From IMG/VR virus record IMGVR_UViG_3300031111_000007, positions 64,001 through 128,000 of that record: a stretch of DNA of 64,000 nucleotides. The stretch is one strand, 5' to 3'. A program made the position numbers and the translations under genes. Every line of letters starts with the position of its first letter. The first letter of the stretch is position 1. The notes under the pieces were generated by a model. That model was given only the letters and a program-made list of their open reading frames with translations, had not been told where the DNA came from and made no database searches. The DNA comes from a virus. Of this stretch, positions 2,268-60,263 are shown piece by piece.

Positions 2268-2753
2268 TTATTTTTCCTCTTTAATTTCTTCCTGATTCTC
2301 TAGTATTCTTATCATCATGTTTATAAGTGTTTCCTTTGCTGTATCCACTTTATCAAATGTTGCCATTCTGTAATCATGTATCGATTTTTGAAGCATTCTT
2401 ATTTGATCCCTTGAAAAATCATCTGTTTTTGTTACTCTCTGATGAATTATACCATCCATTTCTTTTCTTTCTTGAATCTCATCAGTTAAATTTTTTGTTA
2501 CACTTGTTACTTTTTGAGAATTAACACTTATCATTGTATCATGTGAAAATACAGCAGTTGTACACCAAACAGCCCATGCTAAAATAAAACCAAAAAGAGA
2601 AGAAGATAATAACTTTTTCCAACTAAATTTTCTAACAACTTTATATCCACCATTTCCATCTGTTACAACTTCAGGTTCAGAATATAAAGCATGGATAGAA
2701 CCTTTATCAGCATCTTCTATTTTATCTTCTTTTCTTCTTCTATATTCATTCAT
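2268..2753 (-). CDS. Single-pass membrane coiled-coil protein in the baseplate operon
   Basis: 161 residues. A charged N-terminus (1-45) is followed by one hydrophobic segment at about 49-70 and a long helical, probably coiled-coil C-terminal half rich in K, E, Q and D. The start codon overlaps the gp6 stop (TAATG), so it is translationally coupled. A membrane protein between two baseplate genes is unusual; it could act in the envelope late in infection or be a virion protein acting at the host membrane. I do not recognise a family. Confidence 0.7.
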   Translation of the reverse strand: MNEYRRRKEDKIEDADKGSIHALYSEPEVVTDGNGGYKVVRKFSWKKLLSSSLFGFILAWAVWCTTAVFSHDTMISVNSQKVTSVTKNLTDEIQERKEMDGIIHQRVTKTDDFSRDQIRMLQKSIHDYRMATFDKVDTAKETLINMMIRILENQEEIKEEK

Positions 2754-4468
2754 TATGTTTCCTCCACTATTCTTACGGTATCAGATGAAAGATAAGGAAA
2801 CTGATTTAACCCTAGCTGTATAGGTCTTAACATGTTATATCTATCATTCCAAGGAGCAGCAGTCCATTTCGGATATAAATTAGAATTATCAGGATTAACA
2901 TTATATTCATAAACCGTCTTATTCACATTGATATCTCTTATATTTAGATTTCTTATACCTTTGATATAAGTAAAATTATCACTTGGTGAAACTTCAGTTG
3001 TATCGATTAAATACTCAGTAATATCATTAAAGTCTATCTCACTATTGAATGTCTGGTTATCTGCTCTAAAATAATAAATCAATTTATTCAAAACATCTTG
3101 TTGAATATCAGTAAAGTCATAAATTCTCTTTTTTCTAATACCAATTTCAAATGAAAAATAAACCAAATCAGGAACTTCCATTATTTCATATGCACAAAGC
3201 ATCTTTCTTGGTCTTAAATAAAGAAGCAACTCATCTTCCCACGATGATGAATATTGTGTAGGAACTAAAGTACTTCCCGTTGATCCCCAATCAGTAATAA
3301 GTGAACCTGCTGATGTTTGAATTGTAGAGTTTCCATATGATTGTGGTATAACACTGATATGAACAACATTATATTCCTCTGGATTACCAGCACCTGATGG
3401 AACTAAATCCTGTTCTCCATAAGCGTTAGCCTTTACAACGTCTGATCTTGCTGAAAGATATGAGTTATATGCATTAGCATTAACGTCCCTAAATTGCGCT
3501 CTAAGAGCCGATTGTGCATTGAATCTAATCTCACTAATAGTCTCAGCGGCAGCAGCACCAATACTCGCAGCACTCAATGATATAGTAATTAGGTCATTAT
3601 TAATATATGATGTTGTAATACCCCTTGTTTGTTCAATCAATTCATCACTTTCAATAACCCATGTTTCATCTACATCAGCACCAATACTTCCATTAGTACC
3701 TAAACTATCAAGTGTCGTAATTGATATTACATCAGTATCGATAGGAACATTTCTACCAGAATTAAAGACAATTTTATTTCTTCTATATCTATCATAAATA
3801 AACATATATACATCATCAGAATTAGGAGTGATTACATCCAAATAAAAATCTGATAGTCTTGTCCATTCCGTATCATTGATAGTAACCCTTATGCTTGGAT
3901 AATCATCTGAAAGATCATCATCATATCCATATTCAGTAGGCAAAATTAATTCATTATCAATCAGATCATCCCCTGTATAACCTGTTAGTGTAACTACTTC
4001 TCCTTGCCTAATAGGAACATCAATATATGTCCATCCACCATTTGCTGTTACTTGAATAGCAGCAGTAGTAGCAAACAATATCTCATTTCCATCTGTATCT
4101 GTTCTACCTGAATTTAATTGTTTCCAAGGCAATACTCTAAGTACATCACCAGCTTGTGTTCCCGAAACACCTATCTGAACAGTACATCTCGCTGATCGTA
4201 TCCCTTTAGGTTCATAACCTTGTTGTCTTGCCAATCTGTTTGCTGCCTCATAAACATCAGCCGTTTCAAGAAATGTGTTTTTAGCTATTTTATTTATGAA
4301 AAATGTGTTTAACTCACTTACATAAGCATTCAATTCCATAAGAATTGAAATATTTGCTCCTTCAAAATCATAATCTTTGAAGACATCACTATTTCTAAGT
4401 TCTGTTTTGAATTTCTCTATCAAACTAATAAAATCAATTGATAGATAATCAGGGGTGAAATCTGCCAT
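2753..4468 (-). CDS. 6: Baseplate wedge protein gp6-like (baseplate J family)
   Basis: 571 residues. The N-terminus (MADFTPDYLSIDFISLIEKF, then an ILMELNAYVSELNTFFINKIAKNTFL-type helix up to about residue 70) is characteristic of T4 gp6/baseplate J proteins, which form the inner ring of the contractile-tail baseplate. The remainder alternates beta domains and helices as in that family, and length is close to T4 gp6. It sits immediately after a gp25 homologue, the usual order. Family assignment is based on this pattern and context. Confidence 0.85.
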   Translation of the reverse strand: MADFTPDYLSIDFISLIEKFKTELRNSDVFKDYDFEGANISILMELNAYVSELNTFFINKIAKNTFLETADVYEAANRLARQQGYEPKGIRSARCTVQIGVSGTQAGDVLRVLPWKQLNSGRTDTDGNEILFATTAAIQVTANGGWTYIDVPIRQGEVVTLTGYTGDDLIDNELILPTEYGYDDDLSDDYPSIRVTINDTEWTRLSDFYLDVITPNSDDVYMFIYDRYRRNKIVFNSGRNVPIDTDVISITTLDSLGTNGSIGADVDETWVIESDELIEQTRGITTSYINNDLITISLSAASIGAAAAETISEIRFNAQSALRAQFRDVNANAYNSYLSARSDVVKANAYGEQDLVPSGAGNPEEYNVVHISVIPQSYGNSTIQTSAGSLITDWGSTGSTLVPTQYSSSWEDELLLYLRPRKMLCAYEIMEVPDLVYFSFEIGIRKKRIYDFTDIQQDVLNKLIYYFRADNQTFNSEIDFNDITEYLIDTTEVSPSDNFTYIKGIRNLNIRDINVNKTVYEYNVNPDNSNLYPKWTAAPWNDRYNMLRPIQLGLNQFPYLSSDTVRIVEET

Positions 4469-4477
4469 AATAACTCC

Positions 4478-4855
4478 TTATCTCGTTAATATAAAATCTA
4501 CTGCTTCAACTGTATCACTATTCTCTATAGTAAATTTTAATCTACATTTATATATATTCTCATCATATCGTGGTTGAATATCAAAACCCGTTATGTTAAT
4601 TCTCGTTTCCCAAACTCTAATTGCATCCAATAAACTTTCCGCAATCATTCTTGCTGTAGTAGCATCTATTGGTTCAAAGAGAAGTTGTTTAACATTACCA
4701 GCAAATGTAGGTAACATTCTTCTTTCTCCTTGTGTTGTCAGTACTATATTCTCAATACTATTAAATATAGCATCTATATCACCATCTTTTTGAACGTCAC
4801 CATCTGACTGTCTTACAAACGATCCATCATAATCACTGTAATAATAATCTGCCAT
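4478..4855 (-). CDS. 25: Baseplate wedge protein gp25-like (GPW/gp25 family)
   Basis: 125 residues, the usual gp25 size. Family hallmarks: an IDAIFNSIENIVLTTQGERRMLP stretch (about 28-50) with the conserved TxxGERxMxP core, then FEPIDATTARMI and the terminal beta hairpin. gp25/GpW proteins sit in the baseplate wedge core near gp6 and gp53. It is separated from gp6 by only 9 bases and preceded by a GGAAGTAAT ribosome site. Confidence 0.9.
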   Translation of the reverse strand: MADYYYSDYDGSFVRQSDGDVQKDGDIDAIFNSIENIVLTTQGERRMLPTFAGNVKQLLFEPIDATTARMIAESLLDAIRVWETRINITGFDIQPRYDENIYKCRLKFTIENSDTVEAVDFILTR

Positions 4856-4856
4856 A

Positions 4857-5237
4857 TTACTTCCTCTTTGGGTTAATAATTATTGTATCTAACTTTCTAC
4901 TCTTATTTATCTTTTCTACATTAGGTTTATGAGGCTTTTCATCAAAAATCATAACACATTCTGTTTCCTCTCTGCATTTTTTATTATAGAGTATTCGTGT
5001 CTTATTTTTGATATAATACTGTCTATTATATTCTTTTATATTGTCTTTGTTTTTCTCTTTATATCTGAGAACACAATTTTTTTGGATGGAACTGCCTTTG
5101 GAGGATTGTCTATATCTCTTATTATAAAGTCTCATGCAGTCCTTACAATAAAGATTTTTACCATCAGGTCTTCTTGACTGCTTTCCAAACTTACTTAATT
5201 TCCTATTCCTTCCACAACCTTTACATATCTTTTTCAT
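4857..5237 (-). CDS. Small zinc-finger protein, HNH-related type
   Basis: 126 residues, very basic. The N-terminus has CKGCGRNRKLSKF and, 17 residues later, YCKDCMRLYNKRY: a CxxC/CxxC zinc-binding module seen at the start of many phage HNH-like proteins. No catalytic HNH core is visible downstream; the rest is Lys/Asn/Tyr-rich with a third Cys pair. It may be a degenerate homing-type endonuclease or a nucleic-acid-binding protein. Its start (AAAGGTT ribosome site) lies inside the 3' end of the 62-aa gene upstream. Confidence 0.65.
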   Translation of the reverse strand: MKKICKGCGRNRKLSKFGKQSRRPDGKNLYCKDCMRLYNKRYRQSSKGSSIQKNCVLRYKEKNKDNIKEYNRQYYIKNKTRILYNKKCREETECVMIFDEKPHKPNVEKINKSRKLDTIIINPKRK

Positions 5238-5409
5238 AACCTTTCTTATGTTTCTTTTTCCTGTTATACTTCTTCTTATCTTTCATTGGACCACCAGTAG
5301 GGGGAGTAGGTATTCTAATACCTTTCTTTTGATCCATTACATCAGAATCAATTTTGATCTTGAATTTCTTTTTCTTTTTTCCTTCTTCTATATAGTCTTT
5401 GAATTTCAT
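5221..5409 (-). CDS. Small Lys-rich protein with capsid-targeting-like leader
   Basis: 62 residues beginning MKFKDYIEEG. The first nine residues resemble the T4 internal-protein capsid-targeting sequence (MKTYQEFIAE) and end in I-E-E, fitting the (I/L)-x-E rule of the T4 prohead protease. The remainder is extremely Lys-rich with a Pro/Gly patch (PTPPTGGP), like a small DNA-neutralising internal head protein. It overlaps the 72-aa gene upstream by 4 bases. Capsid location is inference. Confidence 0.65.
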   Translation of the reverse strand: MKFKDYIEEGKKKKKFKIKIDSDVMDQKKGIRIPTPPTGGPMKDKKKYNRKKKHKKGYEKDM

Positions 5410-5624
5410 TTTTTTAATCCTGTTGCTCCTTTACCTTTCTTCCAACCCTGCTTCGCTCTAAGTGCAAAGAGAAGTTCTCCCATCTTCTCTTTGTTTCCGG
5501 GTTTACCTCTTAATGCTGCTATCTCTTTCTTGAGCTTGGCTATCGTCTTGTCTTCATGTTCACCTGTATGTTCAATTTCTACCTTTTTATTCCATTTCTC
5601 ATTTATCCACTGTAAGAATCTCAT
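5406..5624 (-). CDS. Small protein with capsid-targeting-like leader
   Basis: 72 residues. MRFLQWINEK again gives an aromatic-I-x-E end to a short amphipathic leader. The rest holds a short coiled coil (KTIAKLKKEIAALRG) and a basic Gly/Lys tail. A good AGGAGGG ribosome site 4-5 bases upstream supports the start. It is grouped with three other leader-bearing genes between the hub and wedge genes of the baseplate operon. Function unknown; internal head protein is the favoured guess. Confidence 0.6.
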   Translation of the reverse strand: MRFLQWINEKWNKKVEIEHTGEHEDKTIAKLKKEIAALRGKPGNKEKMGELLFALRAKQGWKKGKGATGLKK

Positions 5625-5633
5625 ATTCCCTCC

Positions 5634-7547
5634 TTATGCTATATCTTTTGCTTTTATTCTCATCTTACCACCTTTAGCTAAAGAAACAAAATCAGATACT
5701 CTGTTAGGATTAAACCCACAAGCATTAGGACATTTTCTACAATCACCCTTTCCATCCATTGCACAGCATAATTTAGTAAGTATTTTATTCCAATTTTCTT
5801 TAGGATTAGCTTCTTTCATACCTTCTATTGCTTGCTTCCATCCTACAGAACCCGGACTCATATCTACATACACATCTTTATTCTTCATACGGCTACCTCT
5901 TGAACTAAAATGTAATAGAGTAATAACATCAACATCAGGGTCTTTAGAATATTCAATTGCCTGTTTTGGATTTAAAGCAACAACTCTAATATTAACATTA
6001 CCCGGATATTTTCTTTTCAATCTTTTAGCATTTATTAATTTAAATCCTCTTTGTTCATCTACTGACATGTTTATATGAAAAACTGGTTTACCTTTTAATG
6101 GACCTTCTTCAAATACTCTGCCCCCATATTTAGTAACAAACTTTTCTTGTTTAGTAATAGCTTTAAGTTGTAAACCAACTTTTGCAGCATCCTTTATTAT
6201 TTTTTCTATTTGTTGATCTGTTGCTTGATCTTCAATATAATCACCAGAAGAAAAAAACCTCAATCCACCCATTCTATTGAGAGTTTCTACATTTTTTTTA
6301 CCAACACCTGTTAAGACAAAATTACCGTCTTTGTCTCTCATGGGTTGTCCTTTATCCTTCTTTATCCATTTTTTAAATGTACCTTGATATACTTGACCTT
6401 CTTTTTCTTCTTTACCAAATAGAAAATTCGGATTTTTTTCTTGTGCTTCCCTTCCTTGTTCAACATAACAATACGCACAAGTAGGATTATTAGCATCTGT
6501 AATCTTCAAACTATCTTTTCTTTTTCTCAATCTTGATATAGTAGATTCACTTGCACCCATATCAATTGCATCTTGTAAATCTTTTGCAGCCTTTCCATAT
6601 TCTTCTCTCATCTCCTTGAGTTTCATTCTCTTAGGACAAACTGTTGATAAGTCAATTGATTTCCATGTTTTATCATTATTTTCATATGCAGACCATTGCT
6701 TAATACATCCATTTATTTCTGTTGTACTATTATATTGCTTGGCTTTAATAAGAAGTAGCATTTCAAGATATCCATCTTCATTTTTAAAATGACCATCAAC
6801 ATATTTTTTTCTTACAATAGCCATTAATTTTTGAGTTAATGTATCTTTACTTTTAAGAAGACTATCTTCAAGACTTTCAAGGCTTTTAAATTTTCTAAAA
6901 GTTTCATTTCTTACTCTTAATGCTTCTTTTTTCTTTTCTTCTTCCTGCTTCATCATTGCTATAACATCTTTAGCAAATTTCTGTTTTTCTTTATACCCCT
7001 TTAAACTATCAGCATATATTTCTTTTGGTTTTTTTCTACCTGCACCAGCATCTCTACCCCAACCTTCCTCACCTATTTTTGCTTCCATACCATGTAAAAT
7101 ATATTTAATAACAAAAGATTTTTTACCTAATTCATCTAAGTCATGAAAAACTTTTCTTGATTTTTTTGTAATATCTTTATAAGCCGCTTCTACTTCTTTA
7201 TCCCAATCAGATTTCGGACTCATTTTCTTGGAATCTTTGAAAGCAGTATTTTTCTCTTTTTCTTCTTTACCCATCCAAGATTGAAATTTTCTTGGTTCTT
7301 TTATTTTAGACATTTCCTCTGAATCAGATTCTATATCTTCATTGATCAAATCTCTCAATAAAGAAAAATGATTTATTTCATCTTCACTCAAACCATTAGT
7401 TACATCATAATACTCACCTTCTACTAATGGATTTTCAAAAAACAACCAAGTATTCTCACCTAAAATAGTATCATCCAATGCTTTTGCTTGATTAAACAAC
7501 AATGCTTCATCAATTTCATTTTTAGATATAAAACTCTTTAATCTCAT
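5634..7547 (-). CDS. 637-aa Cys-rich protein, possible radical-SAM/GP88-like TIM-barrel domain
   Basis: A Lys/Glu-rich helical N-terminal half (about 1-330) is followed by a compact domain. Visible there are NPTCAYCYVEQ, GLRFFSSGDYIED, a TKQEKF segment, alternating strands (VFHINMSV, NIRVVALNP, VDVITLLHFS), and a terminal Cys cluster CCAMDGKGDCRKCPNAC. The CxxCY plus R-x-SGD plus terminal Cys pattern recalls phage GP88/Gp37-type proteins, thought to be radical-SAM-like, but the canonical CxxxCxxC is absent. The start MRLKSFISKNEIDE is leader-like without a clean cleavage motif. It overlaps the CCA enzyme gene by 4 bases (ATGA-type coupling). Confidence 0.6.
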   Translation of the reverse strand: MRLKSFISKNEIDEALLFNQAKALDDTILGENTWLFFENPLVEGEYYDVTNGLSEDEINHFSLLRDLINEDIESDSEEMSKIKEPRKFQSWMGKEEKEKNTAFKDSKKMSPKSDWDKEVEAAYKDITKKSRKVFHDLDELGKKSFVIKYILHGMEAKIGEEGWGRDAGAGRKKPKEIYADSLKGYKEKQKFAKDVIAMMKQEEEKKKEALRVRNETFRKFKSLESLEDSLLKSKDTLTQKLMAIVRKKYVDGHFKNEDGYLEMLLLIKAKQYNSTTEINGCIKQWSAYENNDKTWKSIDLSTVCPKRMKLKEMREEYGKAAKDLQDAIDMGASESTISRLRKRKDSLKITDANNPTCAYCYVEQGREAQEKNPNFLFGKEEKEGQVYQGTFKKWIKKDKGQPMRDKDGNFVLTGVGKKNVETLNRMGGLRFFSSGDYIEDQATDQQIEKIIKDAAKVGLQLKAITKQEKFVTKYGGRVFEEGPLKGKPVFHINMSVDEQRGFKLINAKRLKRKYPGNVNIRVVALNPKQAIEYSKDPDVDVITLLHFSSRGSRMKNKDVYVDMSPGSVGWKQAIEGMKEANPKENWNKILTKLCCAMDGKGDCRKCPNACGFNPNRVSDFVSLAKGGKMRIKAKDIA

Positions 7548-8971
7548 TTTGTGAATCTCCTAATGTAATTTTCTATTTCTTCCTTATCCTCTATATCATT
7601 ATCTAAAATCCATGCTGTTGTCTGAGTAATAACCTTACCCACTTCAGGTCCGGGGTTTAGTCCAGTAAGTCTCATAACATCTTTACCATCAACCATCTTC
7701 ACTTGTTTGTTGACTTGTTTGGCACCAAATTTCTCCTTTACCTTGATTGCTTTATCAACGATTTTTTCAAATTCACCAGCATGTTTGAACATAAATCCTC
7801 TTGCATACTCATCAGCTTTTCCAACAGCTACCAGTACATCCCAATTCTCATCAGAAACGATCTTAGCAATCTTTGATGGTTTCATATCCAGAATCTTGTG
7901 GAACTTCATATGGTTTCCAACAGCAAAGACAAGTGCTTCTTTCTCTTTGTTGCTCATGCGTAATCTATCCGCTATAGCATTAACCAATTCAACTGACTTC
8001 CTTGCATGTCCAAGATATCTAGGTAAACCTTTCTCATGAGATAGGGTTACTCCTTTCCCGACATCATGTAGAAGTATAGCCAGATTTTTAATCGGATCAG
8101 CAGTATCACTCTTTTTAAGTGCTGCCATAACGTGACTATATACCGTACCACCTTGCCCCCTAGTCTCTGGATGATGCTGTAAATTCTCTCTATACCACTT
8201 AAGATTTACTATCTCAGGTAATATATGCTTGAGAAGTTTTAGCTTATCTAACATCTCAATGTACTTCGCAAATTTATCACCACTCTGACCAGCGGATTTT
8301 ATTAACTCATCCTTGATCCTCTCTGGTGGTAATCCTGTTATATTATGAGCTAACTTCTGAGCCGCTTTTTCCGTACCCTTATCAACTTCAAAATCAAGTT
8401 TAGCAGCAAACCTAGCCAACCTCATCATTCTTAGATAATCCTCACCAAACCTCTTATAAGGATCACCTACAGTCTTGAGAACTCTATTCTTTATATCTCG
8501 TTTCCCATCGAAATAATCTACTATCTCACCTTTTGCGTTTATACCCATTGCGTTAATTGTAAAATCCCTTCTCTCAACATCGTCTTTAAATCTACCTGTT
8601 ATTTGAACTGATTCTGGTCTTCTCCCATCAAGATATGTTCCATCTGTTCTAAATTGAGCTACTTCAAAATCGAACCCACCTTGCTTCACTACTACTATAC
8701 CAAAATCCTTGGACTTACCAATGTTATATGTCTTATACATCTTACCAAGTTCTTCCATACTTAAATTAGTTGCAATGTCTATGTCGTGGGGTTTTAAATT
8801 TCCAAGAATAATATCTCTTACACTTCCACCAACTATAAATGCTTTATGTCCAGTTTTTTCAATCTTTTTTAATACATTAACAGCAGCAGATAATTCTTTA
8901 TTCCTTCTGATATATGACTGCCAATCTTTCAACTGTTCTTTTGCTTCTGTTAAATAACGTGTAAATCTCAT
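7544..8971 (-). CDS. cca: tRNA CCA-adding enzyme / poly(A) polymerase family with HD domain
   Basis: 475 residues. The class II nucleotidyltransferase head has FIVGGSVRDIILGN (GGSVRD at 49-53 region) followed by HDIDIAT with metal-binding D63 and D65, and ERRDFTINAMG further on. An HD hydrolase module (LLHDVGKG) lies at about residue 300, as in bacterial CCA enzymes. It would add or repair the 3'-CCA of tRNAs. Its first nine residues, MRFTRYLTE, precede the conserved fold and match the (L/I)-x-E capsid-leader pattern of the neighbouring genes. It lies in the late baseplate operon, and the phage tRNAs in this window already encode CCA, so repair of damaged host tRNA is more plausible than maturation. 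Confidence 0.9.
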   Translation of the reverse strand: MRFTRYLTEAKEQLKDWQSYIRRNKELSAAVNVLKKIEKTGHKAFIVGGSVRDIILGNLKPHDIDIATNLSMEELGKMYKTYNIGKSKDFGIVVVKQGGFDFEVAQFRTDGTYLDGRRPESVQITGRFKDDVERRDFTINAMGINAKGEIVDYFDGKRDIKNRVLKTVGDPYKRFGEDYLRMMRLARFAAKLDFEVDKGTEKAAQKLAHNITGLPPERIKDELIKSAGQSGDKFAKYIEMLDKLKLLKHILPEIVNLKWYRENLQHHPETRGQGGTVYSHVMAALKKSDTADPIKNLAILLHDVGKGVTLSHEKGLPRYLGHARKSVELVNAIADRLRMSNKEKEALVFAVGNHMKFHKILDMKPSKIAKIVSDENWDVLVAVGKADEYARGFMFKHAGEFEKIVDKAIKVKEKFGAKQVNKQVKMVDGKDVMRLTGLNPGPEVGKVITQTTAWILDNDIEDKEEIENYIRRFTK

Positions 8972-9689: not shown

Positions 9690-10919
9690 TTACGATGGTG
9701 GATTAGTCTCTCTTTCAGCATCACCATCTGAATCAGAACCTTGAGCATGTGTATGTCCCTTTAGACTAATTCCATCTGCTACAAAATCACCACCTGTTGC
9801 AGTACCTGTACCATTCACGGCAAGATTTCCATTTATTGTAGTATTACAATTTATTGTGAAAGATGCTGCCGTCAAAGTAGCAGGACCAGAAACAGTTATA
9901 TTGAGATTTCCACCAATCGTTTCTGACTTATTTCCACCAATCGTTTCTGATTTGTTGTTATCAATTGTAGAAGTTTTATTATTTCCTATATCTTCTGTTT
10001 TGTCATTCTCAATAGTCTCTGTCTTATCATTTCCTATAGTTTGAGTGAAATCATTTCCTACATCTTCTCTCTTATCATTCCCAACTTCTACATCCTCATT
10101 CACACCAACTTTCTTAGTGGAATTCTCATCTACTGTAAGATTTCTCTGTTGTTTGATATAAATATTTTTTCCATTAGCTACTATTTCATATTTCTCAGCA
10201 TTATTCTTTACTACCATATTACCATCATTGTCAATCTCAATATAACTATTTGATGGATGATAAAGATGAAGTCTGTTTGATCCGGGTGTTGAATCTAACT
10301 CCATTGTAATACCACCGTGAGTAACAATAACATAATTATGAGGATATTGAGCAGCATAAGGAGAAGTTGGCTCAGACCATAAACCACCAAATGCTGTCTG
10401 AACTCCAACACTTCTATTTTGATTTTTAGTGATTACCAAAGTCTCATCTGATATACCTCTTGCTAATCTATGAACATCTGGTTCTCCTAATCTTCCCTGT
10501 ACTGGATACTCACCATCAGGATCACGAAAACCATCATTTTTATTCGTTGCTTGTTTGTTATTTGAATACTGTTCTTTTGCTTCTGGAATTCCCGGCATAG
10601 AAGCAAAATATCTTGGTTGATTAGCATTGCTATTCTCAAAAAATAACATTACTTGTGATCCCTGAAGTGGAACAGACCACGCACCAAAACCACTTACAGA
10701 ACCTTCATGAATAGGCATACACGGTTCAGCCCATGGCAATTCATCTGTAGGAATTCCCTCAGTCTCAGATTTTATCTTCTTTGGTGTATGTAACCCATGA
10801 ATTCTCACTCTCACTCTACCAGCTTTCAATGGGTCTTTATTATCTTCCACAACACCACGATAAAAACCATTTAAACTCTCTGTTTCAAACTTTAGATTTC
10901 TTAAACTATTCTTAAGCAT
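9690..10919 (-). CDS. 5: Baseplate hub spike gp5-like (OB domain plus beta-helix needle, no lysozyme domain)
   Basis: 409 residues. The N-terminal third carries the VgrG/gp5 OB fold pattern (FYRGVVEDNKDPLKAGRVRVRI, then ELPWAEPCMP and SQVMLFFENSNANQPRYFASMPG). About residues 270-340 hold short repeats of the type ND/NN-K-TE-x-IG, which form the triple-stranded beta-helix needle. The C-terminus LKGHTHAQGSDSDG is typical of spike tips. T4 gp5 has a lysozyme domain between OB and needle; none is visible here. It follows the gp27-like hub gene directly, with one base between. Confidence 0.85.
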   Translation of the reverse strand: MLKNSLRNLKFETESLNGFYRGVVEDNKDPLKAGRVRVRIHGLHTPKKIKSETEGIPTDELPWAEPCMPIHEGSVSGFGAWSVPLQGSQVMLFFENSNANQPRYFASMPGIPEAKEQYSNNKQATNKNDGFRDPDGEYPVQGRLGEPDVHRLARGISDETLVITKNQNRSVGVQTAFGGLWSEPTSPYAAQYPHNYVIVTHGGITMELDSTPGSNRLHLYHPSNSYIEIDNDGNMVVKNNAEKYEIVANGKNIYIKQQRNLTVDENSTKKVGVNEDVEVGNDKREDVGNDFTQTIGNDKTETIENDKTEDIGNNKTSTIDNNKSETIGGNKSETIGGNLNITVSGPATLTAASFTINCNTTINGNLAVNGTGTATGGDFVADGISLKGHTHAQGSDSDGDAERETNPPS

Positions 10920-13159: not shown

Positions 13160-13167
13160 TATTTATA
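13160..13167 (-). promoter_or_regulatory. Late promoter (TATAAATA) for the baseplate operon
   Basis: The minus strand reads TATAAATACTATTAG, a full match to the T4-type late promoter consensus TATAAATA, in the intergenic gap 37 bases upstream of the zinc-ribbon gene start. It would drive genes from 13123 down to the left edge. Confidence 0.75.
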
Positions 13168-20451: not shown

Positions 20452-20733
20452 TTATACAAAATTCCAGATATTACCTTCTGACCCAATAAATTCCATCATT
20501 TCATCTTCATCTTCGATATCCAATTCTTTCTTTACACCAGCAAAATGACCTTCTGCATTAGTACCAGCAAGAGCAATATAGTCTTCTCCGAAATCTACAT
20601 CAACTCTATCTCCGGGTCTAAAGTCACCCCACCACTTCATAAATTGAATAGGTCTAATACCGTTTACCTTAACCCCTTTAATGCCAACTCTGGTTTCCGT
20701 AAACAGTTCCAATTTTTCCAACAGTTCTTTCAT
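20452..20733 (-). CDS. Hypothetical small protein with SH3-like beta core
   Basis: 93 residues. N-terminal helix MKELLEKLELFTE, then beta segments (GIKGVKVNGI, PGDRVDVDFGEDYIALAGT) suggesting an SH3-like barrel, and an acidic C-terminal stretch ending GNIWNFV. Preceded by AAAGGAG. Sits in the string of small head-region genes; no family recognised. Confidence 0.6.
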   Translation of the reverse strand: MKELLEKLELFTETRVGIKGVKVNGIRPIQFMKWWGDFRPGDRVDVDFGEDYIALAGTNAEGHFAGVKKELDIEDEDEMMEFIGSEGNIWNFV

Positions 20734-20752
20734 TTCATATCTCCTTTATAGA

Positions 20753-21022
20753 CTATTTCATCATAGCTTTCAATTCTGCCTTTATCTCTTTTGCCTTTGG
20801 TCCTTTCCATGATCTTGCGTTTGATAAGAAATAAAGCACAACACTTCTCGCATCATCAAACATATATTTATCGTTGATTGAGTTTAGCTGTGCCATAGCA
20901 CTCAAATATGGTTCTGCTGCATAATTTACCTTTTTCCAATCTCGTCTGATCTCCATTGCTATCGTACTCAATGGTCTGGTTTGTTTTCCTTCACCTAAAT
21001 ATTTCTCAATTAAATAGCTCAT
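20753..21022 (-). CDS. Small helical protein with IEKYLGE leader
   Basis: 89 residues beginning MSYLIEKYLGEG, where Y-L-G-E fits the aromatic-(I/L)-x-E cleavage pattern seen in other small proteins here. The rest is helical (STIAMEIRRDWKKVNYAAEPYLSAMAQL ... AKEIKAELKAMMK), resembling a small phage protein family common in T4-like genomes. Overlaps the gp4 gene by 4 bases. Possible internal head protein (inference). Confidence 0.65.
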   Translation of the reverse strand: MSYLIEKYLGEGKQTRPLSTIAMEIRRDWKKVNYAAEPYLSAMAQLNSINDKYMFDDARSVVLYFLSNARSWKGPKAKEIKAELKAMMK

Positions 21023-21468
21023 CTATTCCCCCTAAATAAATCTTTTTCTGTTATCACAACGAACTTCATTCCTAACTTCTTACAATACTCTTTTGCTGCA
21101 CTAAATTTAGCACGATTTATAAGAAAGGTTTGTTCTCTTATCGCCATCGTCTTATCACTCTTACCACCACGTTTCTTAGGTAGTCTACAATCTTTGGTTG
21201 GTTTCACTTCAGCAATGAAACGATTACCCCCCTTAAAACAAACATAAAAATCTGGATAATATATTCTCTTTTTATTATTCACAGGATCGAAATATGGTAT
21301 CCTATGATTTTCGCTTGACCACTCTGTTACCTTCTTATTGTAATCAAGCCATTCACACATTCTATATTCCCATGACGATCTACATATTATAGGGTACGTT
21401 CCACAATACTTCTCAGTATGTCTTGGAACATACTGTCTTTCATTCTTATTTCTTTTATATTTCTTCAT
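21019..21468 (-). CDS. 4: Head completion nuclease gp4-like
   Basis: 149 residues, the usual gp4 size. Typical order: YVPRHTEKYCGTYPIICRSSWEYRMCEWLD, then VTEWSSENHRIPYFDPVNNKKRIYYPDFYV (catalytic D of the PD-(D/E)xK-like core) and FIAEVKPTKDCRLP (E-x-K), finishing AAKEYCKKLGMKFVVITEKDL. gp4 proteins finish packaged heads before tail joining. Coupled by overlaps on both sides. Confidence 0.85.
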   Translation of the reverse strand: MKKYKRNKNERQYVPRHTEKYCGTYPIICRSSWEYRMCEWLDYNKKVTEWSSENHRIPYFDPVNNKKRIYYPDFYVCFKGGNRFIAEVKPTKDCRLPKKRGGKSDKTMAIREQTFLINRAKFSAAKEYCKKLGMKFVVITEKDLFRGNR

Positions 21469-21788
21469 TACCTCAAGAATGCTTTTGGTGTTTGTTTTCT
21501 AATATAGTTAATCCAAGTCTGACTCACATTACCATAGGCTGTTCCAGTGGATATATAATTACCATCTCTCTTAGCAACGTAATCAGTAGTAGATGATTGA
21601 GAAGGACCATAAAGATAATCACCCTCAATCCAAAGAGCTTTACCACTACCAGAAGTAGCACCATCAATAAAAGCCTTGATAATTTTTTGGTCTTTGGGTT
21701 TCATCTTATAACCCATTACTTCATCTACCTTTTCTTTTTCTTCTTTTGTTTCCTCTTTCGGATTCAAATACTTGTCAATTAAACTCAT
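21468..21788 (-). CDS. Small protein with LIDKYL leader
   Basis: About 106 residues from the second of two adjacent ATGs, which has better spacing to the AGGAGG site. It begins MSLIDKYLNPKEE. After a charged linker comes a compact domain, MKPKDQKIIKAFIDGATSGSGKALWIEGDYLYGPSQS, then beta-like SSTTDYVAKRDGNYIS. No function recognised. Shares the I(D/E)KYL leader phrase with other capsid-region small proteins. Confidence 0.6.
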   Translation of the reverse strand: MSLIDKYLNPKEETKEEKEKVDEVMGYKMKPKDQKIIKAFIDGATSGSGKALWIEGDYLYGPSQSSTTDYVAKRDGNYISTGTAYGNVSQTWINYIRKQTPKAFLR

Positions 21789-21796
21789 CATTCCTC

Positions 21797-22231
21797 CTAT
21801 AAAAATTTCCTAATTCTCTTACCTCTTGCAGTTTTACCCGAAGATGCTTTTCTCTTTTTCATTCTCGACCACTGTTTATATTTAGTAGTACGTCTGAATT
21901 TCTTAGCCTTCAATTTAATTGCAGCACGATTTCTTCTATAATCCATTCTTCTCTTTCTTTTATCAGATGGTTTAATCTTTACTTTTTTAGCAGCAACCAC
22001 TTCATCCAACTCATCATCTTCAAAAAGTTCCTCATCTAACTTATGGTCTGCAATCATATCAATCAAGTCAGTACACTCTACTATTTGATCTTCAGTAAGA
22101 CTCTCACTATCAAGATTCATAATGAATTCAATCATCATATCCATCAAATGAACATCTTCTTCTGGAAGATACTCATCTTTAGCCTCATCTTCTTTAAGGT
22201 ATTCTTCTAGTTTTCTCTGAATATCACTCAT
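21797..22231 (-). CDS. Acidic-then-basic small head protein (paralogue of 22442-22924)
   Basis: 144 residues split in two: an acidic half (1-75; MMIEFIMNLDSESLTEDQIVE, DELDEVV) and a very basic half (78-144; RKRRMDYRRNRAAIKLKAKKFRR). The leader MSDIQRKLEEYLKEDE contains Y-L-K-E. The design, an acidic pro-segment before an Arg/Lys-rich tail, suits an internal head or core protein whose basic part binds DNA after proteolysis. The same architecture and phrases (MxxFIxNLD, EVxEVDEL) recur in the gene one position upstream. Confidence 0.65.
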   Translation of the reverse strand: MSDIQRKLEEYLKEDEAKDEYLPEEDVHLMDMMIEFIMNLDSESLTEDQIVECTDLIDMIADHKLDEELFEDDELDEVVAAKKVKIKPSDKRKRRMDYRRNRAAIKLKAKKFRRTTKYKQWSRMKKRKASSGKTARGKRIRKFL

Positions 22232-22461
22232 TAGTCAGTCTCCTTCTTTGCATTCCATCCTTTATCTACATCATCAAAAAATTTTGCCTGTTTATTTTTT
22301 GGTAAATCTTTAAAACTCTTAATTTTCCATTTCTTTAGCATCTTTTTGAAAAACGCATCGTACTCAGGACCACCAACTTTTCTTCCTTCAGTAATCCTTG
22401 GATCAACTTCTGATTCTAATCTTTCTAAAGTCTCATCGATTTTATTTATTAAGGTTTGCAT
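22231..22461 (-). CDS. Small protein with a 'FFKKxLKKW...FFDDVDKxW' domain
   Basis: 76 residues from ATG at 22461, which has GGAG at 8 bases; a GTG 9 bases upstream would place the site badly. N-terminal MQTLINKIDETLERLESEVDPRITEGRK is leader-like, with I-T-E. The C-terminal half, AFFKKMLKKWKIKSFKDLPKNKQAKFFDDVDKGW, is a motif repeated in many T4-like phage small proteins. The start lies 20 bases inside the upstream gene. Possibly packaged; function unknown. Confidence 0.65.
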   Translation of the reverse strand: MQTLINKIDETLERLESEVDPRITEGRKVGGPEYDAFFKKMLKKWKIKSFKDLPKNKQAKFFDDVDKGWNAKKETD

Positions 22462-22924
22462 CTCTATCACTCCTATCGCTTCTTTTTCTTACATGGTATC
22501 TCACTTTCTTTCTTCCAGTAGGTGTTCTTCCCTGTCTTGATAAGCGTTCTCTCTTATTTGCTCTTTTCCTACCTTCTGAACTACGTTTAAATTTTGCCTT
22601 TCTTCTCTTTACATGGGTACGATTTTTTCTGTACCATTTTTTTGAATATTGATTTTTAACTGCATTTGTTCTTTTAGCAAGTTTTGGTTTTCTTAATTCG
22701 TCAACTTCTTCTACTTCTGGTTCAAGGTCTTCAATCATATTAATAACCTTTTCCAATTGAGTATCATCAAGTCTATCAGGATCAAGATTAACAATGAAAT
22801 TAGCCATCCTATCAAACATTTCTTCATCAAAAGAGAAATCCAATTCAACATCTGTTTCTCCTTTTGGTGGTAAAATATTAGCCTCTTGTTCTAAAATATC
22901 ATCTATCTTATCGAATAAATCCAT
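22442..22924 (-). CDS. Acidic-then-basic small head protein (paralogue of 21797-22231)
   Basis: 160 residues. Leader MDLFDKIDDILEQEA, acidic region to about residue 80 (MFDRMANFIVNLDPDRLDDTQ, EPEVEEVDEL), then a strongly basic tail of Arg/Lys/Ser (RKNRTHVKRRKAKFKRSS, RQGRTPTGRKKVRY). Same plan and several identical phrases as 21797-22231, so a duplication. Candidate DNA-associated internal head protein. Confidence 0.65.
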   Translation of the reverse strand: MDLFDKIDDILEQEANILPPKGETDVELDFSFDEEMFDRMANFIVNLDPDRLDDTQLEKVINMIEDLEPEVEEVDELRKPKLAKRTNAVKNQYSKKWYRKNRTHVKRRKAKFKRSSEGRKRANKRERLSRQGRTPTGRKKVRYHVRKRSDRSDRDANLNK

Positions 22925-23385
22925 TATTCACCTGATAATGCTTCTTTTAATTTTTTCTTGGCTACTTTCAATTCATATTCATCATCTTCTTTATCATCTT
23001 CAGGTGGTGGTGTTTCTGAATCATCTTCGGGTGATGGTTCTTCTTCTCCTTCTGGTCCTTGTGGTCCACCAGCACCATCCAAGACATCCCTTACTCTCGA
23101 CTCTTGTTTCTCAAAAGCAGGTAGAATCTTCTCTTTCCTATCAACTGCATTAACAATAGCCCTTAAAGCAACAATAAACTCTGAATACTCCTTTGACATA
23201 TCTGCTAAAAGCTGATGTGCTTTCTTGACAAATACAGGATTATCCTCAACTGACATGATTCCATCTTCCAATTCATCTATGAAATCCTCAATTGTATCAT
23301 CCAACACATGTAACTTTCTAAGCATCTTTCCTTCTCTTTTTTTAGTCGATGCCTCATTTAAAACTTCTCTGAATTTTTCTCCCAT
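22924..23385 (-). CDS. Leader-bearing helical protein with acidic Pro/Glu linker
   Basis: 153 residues. MGEKFREVLNEASTKK carries L-N-E at position 9-11. A helical body (LHVLDDTIEDFIDELEDG, HQLLADMSKEYSEFIVALRAIVNAV) is followed by GAGGPQGPEGEEEPSPEDD-type linker and a charged C-terminus. One-base overlaps with both neighbours. Likely core or internal head protein; no family recognised. Confidence 0.6.
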   Translation of the reverse strand: MGEKFREVLNEASTKKREGKMLRKLHVLDDTIEDFIDELEDGIMSVEDNPVFVKKAHQLLADMSKEYSEFIVALRAIVNAVDRKEKILPAFEKQESRVRDVLDGAGGPQGPEGEEEPSPEDDSETPPPEDDKEDDEYELKVAKKKLKEALSGE

Positions 23386-23591
23386 TACAAAATTCCCCCA
23401 TCTATTAGGTCTTGAATTTTTTTCTGTACTTCCTCATTAAACATAGAAATAGTTTTTTCTCTATTATCAGAATTTTTTACAATCTCCACAATCTGCTTGA
23501 AATCAGCAGACATATCCTGTGATAGAGAAATCAACTCCTTTTTCTCCTGTATCTCAATATATTTATCTATCGTTTCTAATAATCGTTCCAT
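23385..23591 (-). CDS. 68-aa helical protein, first gene of the head-region operon
   Basis: MERLLETIDKYIEIQEKKE begins with the ETIDKYIE phrase of the leader family and is helical throughout, ending QKKIQDLIDGGIL. Directly behind a TATAAATA late promoter only 10 bases upstream of the ATG, so the ribosome site must be weak or absent (possible leaderless or short-leader message). Function unknown. Confidence 0.6.
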   Translation of the reverse strand: MERLLETIDKYIEIQEKKELISLSQDMSADFKQIVEIVKNSDNREKTISMFNEEVQKKIQDLIDGGIL

Positions 23592-25051: not shown

Positions 25052-25702
25052 ATGTTATTAGAAACAATTCTCGGAGGGGTCACAGGTTTAGTAGGTAATG
25101 TGGTAAGTAGTATCTTTAAATTCAAGACTGCAAAACTTGATATGGAAGCTACCAAATTAAAAAATACTCATGAACTTGCAATGATTGATGCTGAAACAAG
25201 AGCAATGATAGAAGAAGCAAAAGCCAATATCAAAATCACTCAAGCTCAAGTTGAAGGTGCTATTGAAATTGAAGATTCAAAAGCATTCATGGAAGCACAA
25301 AAACAAGGTAATAAAATACTACTGGATAATCAATGGGTAACAGCATTATTAAATGTTGAAAATAAATGGGCAAAGATCGTCACCGTTCCTATTGCAAGTT
25401 TGATTTCAATATTATTTGGATTTGTAGATTTCTTGAGAGGAATTATCAGACCAGTTCTCACAGTTTATCTATGTGGCGTAACAACATGGGTTACATGGAT
25501 GGCATGGCAAATTATGCAAGCCCATGGAATAGGAATGACAGCAGTACAAGCAACAGTTATATTCAATGATGTTACCAGCATCGTAACATATCTAACAGTA
25601 TCTTGTGTTACTTGGTGGTTTGGTGATAGACGTATGGCAAAAACCATTATGGAGCTTAAAGGAGCATCCACTACTAAATTAGATAAGGAAATAAATATAT
25701 AA
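25052..25702 (+). CDS. Holin-like membrane protein
   Basis: 216 residues. A soluble helical N-terminal part (about 1-105, with TKLKNTHELAMIDAETRAMIEEAK) is followed by three hydrophobic segments at about 113-135, 140-165 and 170-190, then a short basic tail. This is the plan of a family of phage 3-TM holins with a long N-terminal helix. Preceded by GTAGGAGG. Overlaps the next gene in the sequence TAATG. Confidence 0.7.
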   Translation: MLLETILGGVTGLVGNVVSSIFKFKTAKLDMEATKLKNTHELAMIDAETRAMIEEAKANIKITQAQVEGAIEIEDSKAFMEAQKQGNKILLDNQWVTALLNVENKWAKIVTVPIASLISILFGFVDFLRGIIRPVLTVYLCGVTTWVTWMAWQIMQAHGIGMTAVQATVIFNDVTSIVTYLTVSCVTWWFGDRRMAKTIMELKGASTTKLDKEINI

Positions 25703-26073
25703 TGAAATTTAAAAATTATTTAAAAGAAGATGCTATATCAAAAGCATTGGATTTACCAGAACCAGACGTAGGTGGTGATTATCCACAAGAAAAAGTAGAA
25801 AGATATATAAAAATAATCGATGCTGCAATGTCAGCAATGACAAAAAAAGAGGAATCTGAAGCTAATGATGCTATAGTATCTGATCTAAGAGATAAGAAAA
25901 AGAAATGGCAAAATGTAAAGAAAGAAACTAAACCTGTCAAAACCAAACTTGAAGTTCCTCCGGGTGAAGAAGAAGGTGATGGTCCTCCACCCCCTCAAGA
26001 TAAAGAAGAAGAACCACCACCTAAAAAACAAGAAGAAAATACTATATTGAGACTACTTAGAAAAATGCTTTAA
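25702..26073 (+). CDS. Leader-bearing small protein (MKFKNYLKE)
   Basis: 123 residues. MKFKNYLKEDAISK matches the capsid-leader form, ending L-K-E. Then a helical segment (ERYIKIIDAAMSAMTKKEESEAND), a Lys-rich part, a Pro/Glu linker (PPGEEEGDGPPPPQDKEE) and a terminal basic helix (TILRLLRKML). Final gene of the plus-strand operon; its 3' end overlaps the convergent polymerase gene by 17 bases. Candidate internal head protein. Confidence 0.65.
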   Translation: MKFKNYLKEDAISKALDLPEPDVGGDYPQEKVERYIKIIDAAMSAMTKKEESEANDAIVSDLRDKKKKWQNVKKETKPVKTKLEVPPGEEEGDGPPPPQDKEEEPPPKKQEENTILRLLRKML

Positions 26074-36083: not shown

Positions 36084-36371
36084 TTAAACCTTTTTCACTT
36101 GTGGTTTTTCCCACCAAGGACTATTACTTTTTTTATCATCTTTTTCTTCTACCCAATGTGGTTCACTTAACCTATCAGCATTTTTTCTAGCTTGCATTTC
36201 ATTGTTATGTAATGAAACAATTTGCCACATAGGTTTTTCTTTTCTACCATATGATTGACCATAAGCTATAACAACAGCACCAACATTTTTCTTTTTGGTT
36301 TTCTTGGTTACATTAGTTCCATCAGGCATTTCAACTGTAATATCTTCTTTTATATAATCTTTAAATTTCAT
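36084..36371 (-). CDS. Leader-bearing small protein (MKFKDYIKE)
   Basis: 95 residues. MKFKDYIKED, ending I-K-E, is the closest match to the leader of the 62-aa protein at 5221. The body has beta-type sequence (VGAVVIAYGQSYGRKEKPMWQIVSLHNNEMQARKNADRL) and a polar tail with WWEKP. Function unknown; predicted internal head cargo. Confidence 0.65.
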   Translation of the reverse strand: MKFKDYIKEDITVEMPDGTNVTKKTKKKNVGAVVIAYGQSYGRKEKPMWQIVSLHNNEMQARKNADRLSEPHWVEEKDDKKSNSPWWEKPQVKKV

Positions 36372-43983: not shown

Positions 43984-44234
43984 AGTTGAATTCTTTCTTT
44001 TTTATCTTGAGCTTCTATCATCTTCTGTTTTTTATTTTCTTCTATAATCGCTTTTCTCCTAGCTTCATCTTTTTCCAGTAAATTTTTCAAAGTATATACA
44101 ATAGTATAATTATCTCTTTCCCTTACCCATTTTGCGTGAGGGGTAGGATCATTACCAAGATAAACTCTTTCATTACAAATTCCCATTACAGGAATCATCA
44201 TAACAATAATTATTGCAATAATTAATTTTTTCAT
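43980..44234 (-). CDS. Exported or membrane-anchored small protein
   Basis: 84 residues. MKKLIIAIIIVMMIPVMGICNERV is a signal sequence or membrane anchor with Cys at about 20; the lipobox (MGIC) is not canonical. The remainder is a charged helix (LKNLLEKDEARRKAIIEENKKQKMIEAQDKKERI). A spanin-like or periplasmic role is possible but not supported by motif. Overlaps the protease gene by 4 bases. Confidence 0.6.
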   Translation of the reverse strand: MKKLIIAIIIVMMIPVMGICNERVYLGNDPTPHAKWVRERDNYTIVYTLKNLLEKDEARRKAIIEENKKQKMIEAQDKKERIQL

Positions 44235-45199
44235 ATCAATTCATCCTTTGCTCTTTCATTTAATATCTTCTTTGTAACAGAAAGGTCTTTAGCTACCCAA
44301 GCATCCCACATAAAATCATTGATATATTTATATGGAAGTAAACCATAACCTTTATTACCCCATTCTTTACCCCAACTATTTTTGAATTTAATAACCTTAT
44401 TAACATCATCATATCCAACAGCACAAATCGCATGACCACCATAAAACCAATCTGGATTAGCAGGATATGGAATATAACCATTACCACCAACATAAAAAAT
44501 TTCCTCAAAACAAGCAATACCAATTACCGTAGGACCATTATTAGCCAGTGAGGATTTTAATGAATTCAAATCTTCACATCTATAATAAGAATCAATTAAA
44601 CCCCATTTAGCGATCATCTTTGCCCATGATTCAGGTTTTCCTTTATAACTTTCATTATAAGGATATGCTTTTTCACATGGAACACCAATTTTTTGAAGTA
44701 CTTTCATGGCAAATTTAATACTGGTTCCTTCATCATCCGGCCATGGATCGATTTCTTTGGCTTTATAATAAATCCATTGTTCGGATAAATCATATTCATC
44801 TTCTTCTCTTATATATGATTTACCAGCAGCAATTTCTTTCATATATTCCTGTTGTTCTTGCCATTCCTTCATCGCAGCAGTAGCAAAACCAACACATGAC
44901 CCCAACTCACCCTGATCTTTCACATGACTCATCTCTGTTGTCCAATCAATTTTCGCTGGTAGTCCATAAAGACTAGAAGATAATTTATAATCTCTATTAT
45001 CCACTTCATCTTTAATGAGATTTAATTTAATAGTATCCAATAAAGTTTTTTCTACTTGAACAGATGGAAGTCTATCTTTATTCACTACTACCTTTTTTTC
45101 TACTACTGGTTTTTTCTCCCCTGATTTCAACTCATTTATTTGTTTATCTGTCATTCCGGGTTTTAAACCGGGAATTTTTTTTATTTCAATATTATTCAT
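44231..45199 (-). CDS. Papain-like (C1) cysteine protease
   Basis: 322 residues. Catalytic set complete: Gln96 and Cys102 in DQGELGSCVGFA, His256 in YGGHAICAVGYD, Asn274 in FKNSWGKEW. A 70-residue N-terminal extension (PGLKPGMTDKQINELKSGE) could act as a pro-peptide or adaptor; no signal peptide. C1 peptidases are unusual in phages. It lies between two glycosyltransferases in the sugar cluster. Substrate unknown: host protein, or a precursor protein of the virion. Confidence 0.88.
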   Translation of the reverse strand: MNNIEIKKIPGLKPGMTDKQINELKSGEKKPVVEKKVVVNKDRLPSVQVEKTLLDTIKLNLIKDEVDNRDYKLSSSLYGLPAKIDWTTEMSHVKDQGELGSCVGFATAAMKEWQEQQEYMKEIAAGKSYIREEDEYDLSEQWIYYKAKEIDPWPDDEGTSIKFAMKVLQKIGVPCEKAYPYNESYKGKPESWAKMIAKWGLIDSYYRCEDLNSLKSSLANNGPTVIGIACFEEIFYVGGNGYIPYPANPDWFYGGHAICAVGYDDVNKVIKFKNSWGKEWGNKGYGLLPYKYINDFMWDAWVAKDLSVTKKILNERAKDELI

Positions 45200-57895: not shown

Positions 57896-58729
57896 CTACT
57901 TACCACAATTCAAACCTCTACCATTGATACAATCACTAACCTGTGCATATTTAGTTGAAGTTTTCTTTTCAACCTTTGCCAGTTCAGGTTTGGAAGCATC
58001 AACACCGGCATAACCCTGCAACCAAGGCAAATCTTCAGTCATGCTACGATTGGAAGCATAACCAGTTCCACCACCCGGAGAGATAGATTCTTTACCACTA
58101 TCATTGACAAGACCACCAGTAGCATAAGCACCGATACCCCAACCAGAAGCATCTACTCCACGATGAGCACCTTCAGCAGTCAACACCAGCACATTACAAC
58201 CCTCATCCAATACTTCCTGTGCCATCTGACCAAGAACCATCAGGGAATTGGTATCGTTATCATCAGCTTCACCATCGATCATACCTACAATCTTAACACC
58301 AGCAGGTCTTTGGAGAGTGATATAGATAAACTTGGTTCCCTTATAATCCTTTCCATAAGCTCTAGGCACCATGCTTTCCTCATTGATAACCTGAAAATTG
58401 ACTTCGGTATCACTTCCACCTTTTGCCAAATTATCAACAGCACCATCACTCATTTTCAGAACTACACCATCTTCACCGAAAAGATTAATAAACTCTTTCA
58501 TACTACGGAAAGAACTATCGGGAGTAGGGGAAGTAAAGAACCCATTGGTCTGAGGAAAAGGAGTGACCCCCGGATTCACAAACTTACGATCATACACATT
58601 ACTAACTGCATGACTATCCTGAGATAGAGTTGCAGTAGCACCAGCATCAGCAGTTGCTTCAGCCGCAAAAGCGTTGCCACCTACCATAACCAGACTCAAA
58701 CAAATTACTGCAATAATCAATTTTTTCAT
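57896..58729 (-). CDS. Exported hypothetical protein, sigma70 promoter
   Basis: 277 residues. Signal peptide MKKLIIAVICLSLVMVGGNAFA (about 22), nearly the same as that of the 400-aa neighbour. The mature part has TADAGATATLSQDSHAVSNVYDRKF, SSFRSMKEFINLFGEDGVVLKMSDGAVDNLA, TKFIYITLQRPAGVKIVGMIDGEADDN and a Gly/Ser/Thr-rich end with a Cys pair. No family recognised; the central part has a mixed alpha/beta look. Strong own promoter and terminator; preceded by a stem-loop around the -10. Likely periplasmic or secreted early. Confidence 0.75.
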   Translation of the reverse strand: MKKLIIAVICLSLVMVGGNAFAAEATADAGATATLSQDSHAVSNVYDRKFVNPGVTPFPQTNGFFTSPTPDSSFRSMKEFINLFGEDGVVLKMSDGAVDNLAKGGSDTEVNFQVINEESMVPRAYGKDYKGTKFIYITLQRPAGVKIVGMIDGEADDNDTNSLMVLGQMAQEVLDEGCNVLVLTAEGAHRGVDASGWGIGAYATGGLVNDSGKESISPGGGTGYASNRSMTEDLPWLQGYAGVDASKPELAKVEKKTSTKYAQVSDCINGRGLNCGK

Positions 58730-58761
58730 AACATTTTTCTCCTTTCAAGAGTTTTAATTTT

Positions 58762-58780
58762 GGGGAGCATAACACTCCCC
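58762..58780. promoter_or_regulatory. Inverted repeat overlapping the -10 of the 277-aa gene promoter
   Basis: GGGGAG, 7-base loop, CTCCCC. It overlaps TATGCT, so it may be an operator or a 5' mRNA hairpin; without a T-tract on the minus strand it is not an ordinary terminator. Confidence 0.55.
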
Positions 58781-58794
58781 ATTTTATTTGTCAA
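58766..58794 (-). promoter_or_regulatory. Sigma70-type promoter for the 277-aa exported protein
   Basis: TTGACA (58789-58794), 17 bases, TATGCT (58766-58771) on the minus strand. The -35 is perfect. Confidence 0.75.
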
Positions 58795-58802
58795 GCTATT
58801 TT

Positions 58803-60005: not shown

Positions 60006-60008
60006 AAC

Positions 60009-60263
60009 TTATTCTCCTTTCGTTTCTTTAATTGTTTGTGGCTCTACCTGTTCTTCTTCTTGATTAACAGGCACAACCGCTTGTACTACTTTACCCTTGT
60101 CACTTTGTTGCACCATGATAGTACTTGGTTTCACTCCAAACAAGGCACGATAAGGCACCTTGTTATTGTATTGTGATTGAAACGCATTCGCAAGACCAAA
60201 AGAACCCAAGCAAATAATCATGGAAACTACAATTACCAAATAAGCCAACTTTCTTGTACTCAT
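60009..60263 (-). CDS. Exported 84-aa protein
   Basis: Start at 60263 (MSTRKLAYLVIVVSM), chosen for GGAG 8 bases upstream; an in-frame ATG 18 bases earlier has no site. Signal sequence (hydrophobic to about residue 23, ANA near 27-29) and a polar mature part FQSQYNNKVPYRALFGVKPSTIMVQQSDKG with an acidic Gln/Glu tail. Second gene of the exported cluster. Function unknown. Confidence 0.7.
   Translation of the reverse strand: MSTRKLAYLVIVVSMIICLGSFGLANAFQSQYNNKVPYRALFGVKPSTIMVQQSDKGKVVQAVVPVNQEEEQVEPQTIKETKGE

Follow-up and report, generated by a model that had tools for sequence, protein, structure and literature searches.

A clade-specific leader resembling the T4 capsid-targeting sequence on a CCA-adding enzyme and on many other proteins of T4-superfamily phages

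The 64,000-nucleotide window analyzed here comprises positions 64001 to 128000 of a viral contig of 132,451 bases (IMG/VR record IMGVR_UViG_3300031111_000007), in which 204 genes were called, and includes a gene for a 475-residue CCA-adding enzyme (tRNA nucleotidyltransferase with an HD domain; 7544..8971 (-)) whose product begins with the nine-residue leader MRFTRYLTE. A preliminary description of this DNA had likened this and similar leaders to the start of the T4 internal proteins (IPs) and proposed that the CCA enzyme is packaged in the virion and injected to repair tRNAs. The explanation that we favor overall, with a probability of about 0.8, is that the leader is a nine-residue, clade-specific version of the T4 capsid-targeting sequence (CTS), and that the proteins bearing it, the CCA enzyme included, are packed, cut and ejected; that the leader itself serves as a capsid-targeting and processing tag appears very likely from the comparisons below. 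Packaging of the leader proteins is strongly supported by comparison, since the leader has the spacing of the T4 CTS, is found on tens of unrelated families gathered in operon-sized islands and is exchanged with T4-type leaders, and since leader-bearing phages encode gp21, gp22, gp23 and gp20 and a homologous island lies inside the virion-protein cluster of phage Atu_ph07. Thus, the packaging half of the earlier proposal is well supported, whereas its repair half stays at the level of interpretation.

The leader motif and its likeness to the T4 capsid-targeting sequence

All five leaders that the preliminary description had placed in the window proved to be the first residues of real genes. 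Besides that of the CCA enzyme (8945..8971 (-)), which is followed by AKE... and for which motif statistics predict cleavage after Glu9, they are carried by a 62-residue basic protein (MKFKDYIEE; 5221..5409 (-)), a 72-residue protein (MRFLQWINE; 5406..5624 (-)), a 123-residue protein (MKFKNYLKE; 25702..26073 (+)) and a 95-residue protein (MKFKDYIKE; 36084..36371 (-)). Defined as M[KR][FLIY]xx[YWFH][ILVM]xE, the motif starts 5 of the 204 contig genes, compared to about 0.014 expected from the occurrence of its eight-residue core at 11 of 160,836 internal positions. Across ten records it was found on 55 genes, belonging to 35 families without mutual similarity after residue 12 (0.08 expected from the internal rate), and with 80 major-capsid loci added the figures rose to 105 leader genes and 51 unrelated families. 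Versions of the motif with permuted order gave a median of 0 matches, and the reversed DNA pattern, used as a control, gave one match in 18 records. Nine residues are few, and a resemblance among a handful of small proteins might have arisen by chance, but these counts already refute that explanation.

When each core position in turn was left out of the search motif, the residue class expected there was present in 77-98% of families, against a background of 11-34% (P <1e-20 each); positions 3, 6, 7 and 9 were each enriched independently, positions 4, 5 and 8 varied freely, and Glu9 was retained in 77% of families (11% background). A nucleotide-level translation-start element, consisting of AT-rich codons after the ATG, could in principle mimic a peptide signal, and the leader codons are indeed AT-rich, as are codons genome-wide. 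The codons at the core positions are nonetheless varied (TTA, CTC, CTA, CTT and TTG for Leu3, TAT and TAC for Tyr6), a synonymous variety which implies that selection acts on the peptide; together with the interleaving of variable and fixed positions and the retention of Glu9, this makes a start element extremely improbable. All three leader genes of the 5221-8971 operon have a Shine-Dalgarno-like AGAGG, AGGAGG or AGGA upstream of their ATG.

In T4, ten residues suffice for capsid targeting, residues 4 and 7 acting in targeting and residues 8 and 10 in processing, and gp21 cleaves after (L/I)-x-E (PMC9026906). The window leader reproduces this spacing minus one residue (positions 3, 6, 7 and 9), reading hydrophobic-x-x-aromatic-(I/L)-x-E, so that the likeness to the internal-protein start MKTYQEFIAE holds in both its spacing and its (I/L)-x-E end. 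The exact T4 register, with Glu at residue 10, is not reproduced, and since the Glu stands at residue 9 we refer to the leader as a variant of the T4 CTS; other phages have Glu10 forms on a cargo family that also bears the nine-residue leader. No match to the nine-residue DNA pattern was found in T4, S-PM2, Syn9, HTVC008M, NCTC12673, phiM12, KVP40, P-SSM2, rV5, SPO1 or phiKZ, and its absence from these 11 phages indicates that the nine-residue leader is clade-specific. A ten-residue pattern matched T4 IPII and IPIII, both of which start with MKTYQEFIAE, plus a few other gene starts. T4 gene 61.1 (NC_000866 18966-19130 (-)) starts with MKTFKEFIKE, which also fits the T4 CTS; its product is not one of the internal proteins mentioned in the literature examined.

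The two leader types replace one another on the same proteins. In a cargo family that we term CxPF, collected from 54 loci, most phages have MRLxxYIxE while others have MITFKQFLNE, MITFKSFLNE or MLTFKQYLLE; one of the two patterns used to scan for this family included the leader, which biases the leader fraction upwards, and the T4-type members were found independently of it. Likewise, orthologues of the 62-residue protein start with MKFKRFLDE, MDLIEKYLGE or MHLIDKYLPE in place of MKFKDYIEE. Judged by these cases (CxPF family; MKFKDYIEE/MDLIEKYLGE on the 62-residue protein), nine-residue and T4-type leaders are interchangeable on the same cargo. The one confident structural model, obtained for the CxPF family (pLDDT 86.5), places the leader outside the fold and predicts it to be disordered. 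We considered this family as an ADP-ribosyltransferase (ART), which its conserved Arg and Glu suggest, but do not claim this identity, as the predicted fold had no significant match in the PDB (rifampin ART, E 1.1, match probability 0.14).

Probable cargo islands, head genes and a virion proteome

Three records of relatives, G004 (54.5-62.2 kb), G006 (1.5-8.2 kb) and G007 (104.5-113.5 kb), each contain a run of about a dozen genes, all but a few of which start with a leader that is intact or slightly shifted. These cargo islands hold several CxPF-family paralogues with the conserved Arg and Glu, and their identified members include a zeta-toxin-like kinase, NT5C/HAD phosphatases, a C39-type peptidase and the CCA enzyme; in G004, the orthologue of the 123-residue window protein is the first leader gene of the island. 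Elsewhere in the same records, leaders are found on a NUDIX hydrolase, on a RimK-like ATP-grasp protein fused to a Zn-protease domain and on GP88. A comparison of leaders across related phages, which the preliminary description had suggested, thus found them conserved (on all 23 CCA-enzyme relatives that have an N-terminus) and spread over tens of families.

It had further suggested locating a prohead protease elsewhere in the genome, and here the outcome is divided: the contig has none, its head module being missing, while leader-bearing relatives do. Genes for the portal (gp20), the protease (gp21), the scaffold (gp22), the capsid protein (gp23) and the terminase (gp17) are all present in G004, which also encodes a leader-bearing CCA enzyme and eleven leader genes. 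Among the further records tested, each one with gp23 has gp21, and those without gp21 in which gp23 was looked for are also without gp23; the absence of gp21 is consistent with truncated contigs rather than with loss of the protease. Some leader genes adjoin the head genes. The major capsid protein of the clade contains ...KWxxVLxE followed by G near its start, and leaders of the form ...IDxYLxE are found on small genes that lie upstream of the portal. This second leader type is also present in the window, on an 89-residue protein (MSYLIEKYLGE followed by G; 20753..21022 (-)), located in a block whose G004 homologues lie immediately upstream of the head genes, and on a 144-residue protein (MSDIQRKLEEYLKE followed by D; 21797..22231 (-)), whose homologue in G004 (100946-101356) is close to the head module.

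A cultured jumbo Agrobacterium phage, Atu_ph07, carries an 11-gene CxPF-family island, gp53-gp63 (MF403008 39484-50592 (-)), whose consecutive genes bear a third type of leader that ends in L-x-E and in most cases reads M[KR]WxQLxE (e.g., MKWHQLTEA). According to its proteome report (PMC6102473), 29 of the 46 proteins of CDS 31-76 were detected in virions, only two of which had been predicted to be structural beforehand. The island falls inside this block, the numbering having been checked by gp18 (tRNA nucleotidyltransferase) and gp70 (primase/helicase); random detection within the block would pick up seven island proteins on average and miss all of them with a probability of 1e-6. Two more M[KR]WxQLxE-type starts were seen in Atu_ph07, at 290 and 305 kb.

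From the leader, its conservation and modular spread, the gp21/gp22/gp23 module of the relatives and the late-promoter context, all of which are read directly from sequence, we infer docking, cleavage, packaging, injection and a repair role. Cargo proteins would be made late in infection with the leader, whose amphipathic segment (hydrophobic3-x-x-aromatic6-(I/L)7) would dock them in the scaffold core of the prohead; at head maturation a gp21-type protease would cut after (I/L)-x-E, leaving mature cargo inside the capsid to be ejected with the DNA into the next host. The CCA enzyme, as one such cargo, would most likely act within the first minutes, ahead of phage gene expression, to restore tRNA 3' ends that are damaged or modified by toxins.

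The CCA-adding enzyme as candidate injected cargo

The product of 7544..8971 is a tRNA nucleotidyltransferase by profile matches (PF01743, 9e-31; PHROG 2244, 1.9e-73), with PF01743 and PF12627 above the cut-off and the HD domain PF01966 just under it. Its translation contains the catalytic head motifs GGSVRD, DID and RRDFTINA (expected GG-VRD, DxD and RRDxxxNA), and by these features it is a class II tRNA nucleotidyltransferase with an HD domain, for which CCA-adding rather than poly(A) polymerase activity is predicted. Relatives with 58-85% identity were found at 27 IMG/VR viral loci, and in the 23 that have an N-terminus the leader nearly always ends in Glu9 (e.g., MKFLNYLVE, MRLQRYINE); one relative sequence (loci L025 and L026) is shifted by one residue, with MDFRRFYLFE followed by A. 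The alignment with 1MIV, a cellular enzyme whose structure is known, begins only at residue 29 of the phage enzyme, and phages D181, Tunturi_5 and Atu_ph07 have CCA enzymes that lack a leader; the leader is thus best read as an addition made by this phage clade.

The CCA end is encoded in each of the 20 tRNA genes that were found on the contig, so that their completion does not require the enzyme, which favors a role in repair. The contig also codes for an RNA ligase (PHROG 968) and for an RNA-binding protein (PHROG 850), which we take to be Ro60/TROVE-like and which lies outside the window near a tRNA gene cluster (contig 4134-5591 (-)). A repair setting with an RNA ligase and an RNA-binding protein has been discussed for other phages (PMC7824862). 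tRNA 3' ends are tampered with by toxins, and overproduction of a CCA-adding enzyme counteracts the tRNA-end toxin MenT3 (PMC11541572). Rescue of damaged tRNAs early in infection would accordingly be the most plausible function of the enzyme, and we lean slightly towards the view that injected enzyme works on tRNAs as infection begins.

Two other readings must be weighed against packaging and early tRNA rescue. The enzyme could be ordinary late-made machinery that serves the cell in which it is made, by maturing phage tRNAs or by maintaining tRNA ends, its packaging being incidental, as may be suggested by the 20 tRNA genes and RNA ligase of the record and by the usual discussion of phage CCA enzymes in terms of tRNA maturation or repair (PMC3622015, PMC7824862); the CCA ends already encoded by these genes, the location of the enzyme gene within a late structural operon and the leader shared by its relatives, against none on the D181, Tunturi_5 and Atu_ph07 enzymes, make this unlikely, if still the more serious of the two. 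Alternatively, the leader might dock its proteins not to the head but to some other structure of the phage or the host (the baseplate, the tail tube, a replication site or a membrane), with the CCA enzyme associated with the tail. Such a role would fit the position of the CCA gene between the gp5-like hub gene and gp25 in the contig and most close relatives, but in G004 and G006 the gene lies inside the cargo island, with no matching baseplate genes in the flanks examined; other leader genes stand beside head genes, and the motif combines the T4 CTS spacing with a gp21 cleavage-motif end, so that we regard docking elsewhere as quite improbable.

Several observations nevertheless weigh against capsid targeting of the leader proteins, or against its extension to the CCA enzyme. 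Neither gp21 nor gp23 was found in the contig's 132 kb, from which the head module is missing, and residue 10, directly after Glu9, shows little preference. The virion proteome evidence comes from Atu_ph07 alone, which is neither this phage nor a close relative, and its detection figure covers the whole block rather than the individual gp53-gp63 proteins; moreover, the CCA enzyme of that phage, gp18, has no leader. Finally, residues 10-26 of the CCA enzyme are conserved too, and leader conservation in that protein alone is therefore not decisive.

Taken further, these comparisons give slightly better than even odds to a broader picture, in which a large T4-superfamily clade runs an open, modular system of injected effectors: genes that gain a leader would join the islands, and their products would be packed, trimmed and delivered, among them a CCA enzyme that rescues tRNAs before phage gene expression. 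If true, a simple sequence rule would serve as a detector of injected proteins in many uncultured T4-like phages, and proteins present at time zero would be expected to counter first-line bacterial defenses. The injected set would include a tRNA-end repair enzyme, kinases, a C39-type peptidase, a NUDIX hydrolase and many unknown families, and tRNA 3' ends would be a target of phage-host conflict worth guarding from the first minute.

Genomic context and comparison with known systems

By gene content the contig belongs to the T4 superfamily, since it has a gp43-type DNA polymerase, baseplate gp6, gp25, gp53 and gp5-like hub genes and T4-type late promoters. The CCA enzyme gene sits, by profile matches, in a baseplate operon with gp53, the gp5-like hub (9690..10919 (-); PHROG 430, 4.6e-80), gp25 (wedge; 4478..4855 (-); PF04965, 3.6e-12) and gp6 (wedge; 2753..4468 (-); PF21379, 3.6e-07; PHROG 219, 1.1e-41). 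A T4-type late promoter, TATAAATA (13160..13167 (-)), lies upstream of this operon, in agreement with the late context previously ascribed to it: 14 of the 29 genome copies of this word lie in sense 5-60 nt upstream of a start, the best result among 56 permuted words. Across the whole window it is not over-represented (12 found, 12.2 expected), and it is therefore informative only by its position relative to starts.

Within the same operon, a 637-residue protein of unknown family with the Cys motif CPKR..NPTCAYCYVE..SGD..CPNACGF (5634..7547 (-)) has a degenerate leader in the window (MRLKSFISKNEIDE) and an intact one, MRFKDFMTE, at relative loci L016 and L017, which bears out its earlier tentative inclusion in the cargo set; it probably belongs to the same set as the leader proteins. 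Nine orthologues were found beside CCA-enzyme relatives, the protein shares a later site, IDE followed by A, with several relatives, and a pattern scan returned no close relatives. Profile searches gave no family match, and an AlphaFold model was too poor for use (pLDDT 51.5). Its C..C..CY - SGD - C..C layout resembles that of GP88 (PF17338) by eye, and this candidate was rejected for want of Pfam support at E 10; GP88 itself has an intact leader in G007.

Three further regions of the window were noted. At 20452-23591 (-), a group of small genes encodes proteins with amphipathic N-termini, of which some are of the IDxYLxE kind; this block is homologous to the one upstream of the G004 head genes. 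A papain-family (C1) cysteine peptidase (44231-45199 (-)), whose G004 homologue (104111-104965) lies directly upstream of portal gp20, may be part of the head module. Several consecutive secreted-looking proteins of unknown function, with signal-peptide-like starts and strong coding scores, are encoded at 57896-61102 (-).

Among known systems, the CCA-adding and tRNA-repair enzymes of jumbo phages and RaK2 are of the same enzyme family, and restoration of tRNA ends under host attack has been proposed for them (PMC7824862); a packaging leader or virion-cargo status is not reported for them in the literature examined. The Atu_ph07 island shares with the present system a homologous cargo family, organization in one operon and repeated leaders ending in L-x-E, within a cluster of virion proteins defined by mass spectrometry (PMC6102473), and differs in its mostly eight-residue leader and leaderless CCA enzyme. 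T4 Alt offers a precedent for a packaged and injected ADP-ribosyltransferase that is processed by gp21 (PMC9026906); the CxPF family is not filed with it, its predicted fold having no significant PDB match. The closest parallel is with T4 IPI, IPII and IPIII, where T4-superfamily phages with gp21, gp22 and gp23 likewise place a short N-terminal tag, with a hydrophobic/aromatic pair three residues apart and then (I/L)-x-E, on otherwise unrelated proteins. Here the leader is one residue shorter, its processing is predicted, it is found on tens of families rather than the few of T4, and its cargo includes recognizable enzymes such as the CCA-adding enzyme. On this comparison, the leader system would be a variant form of that of the T4 internal proteins, its cargo set being unusually large and enzymatic.

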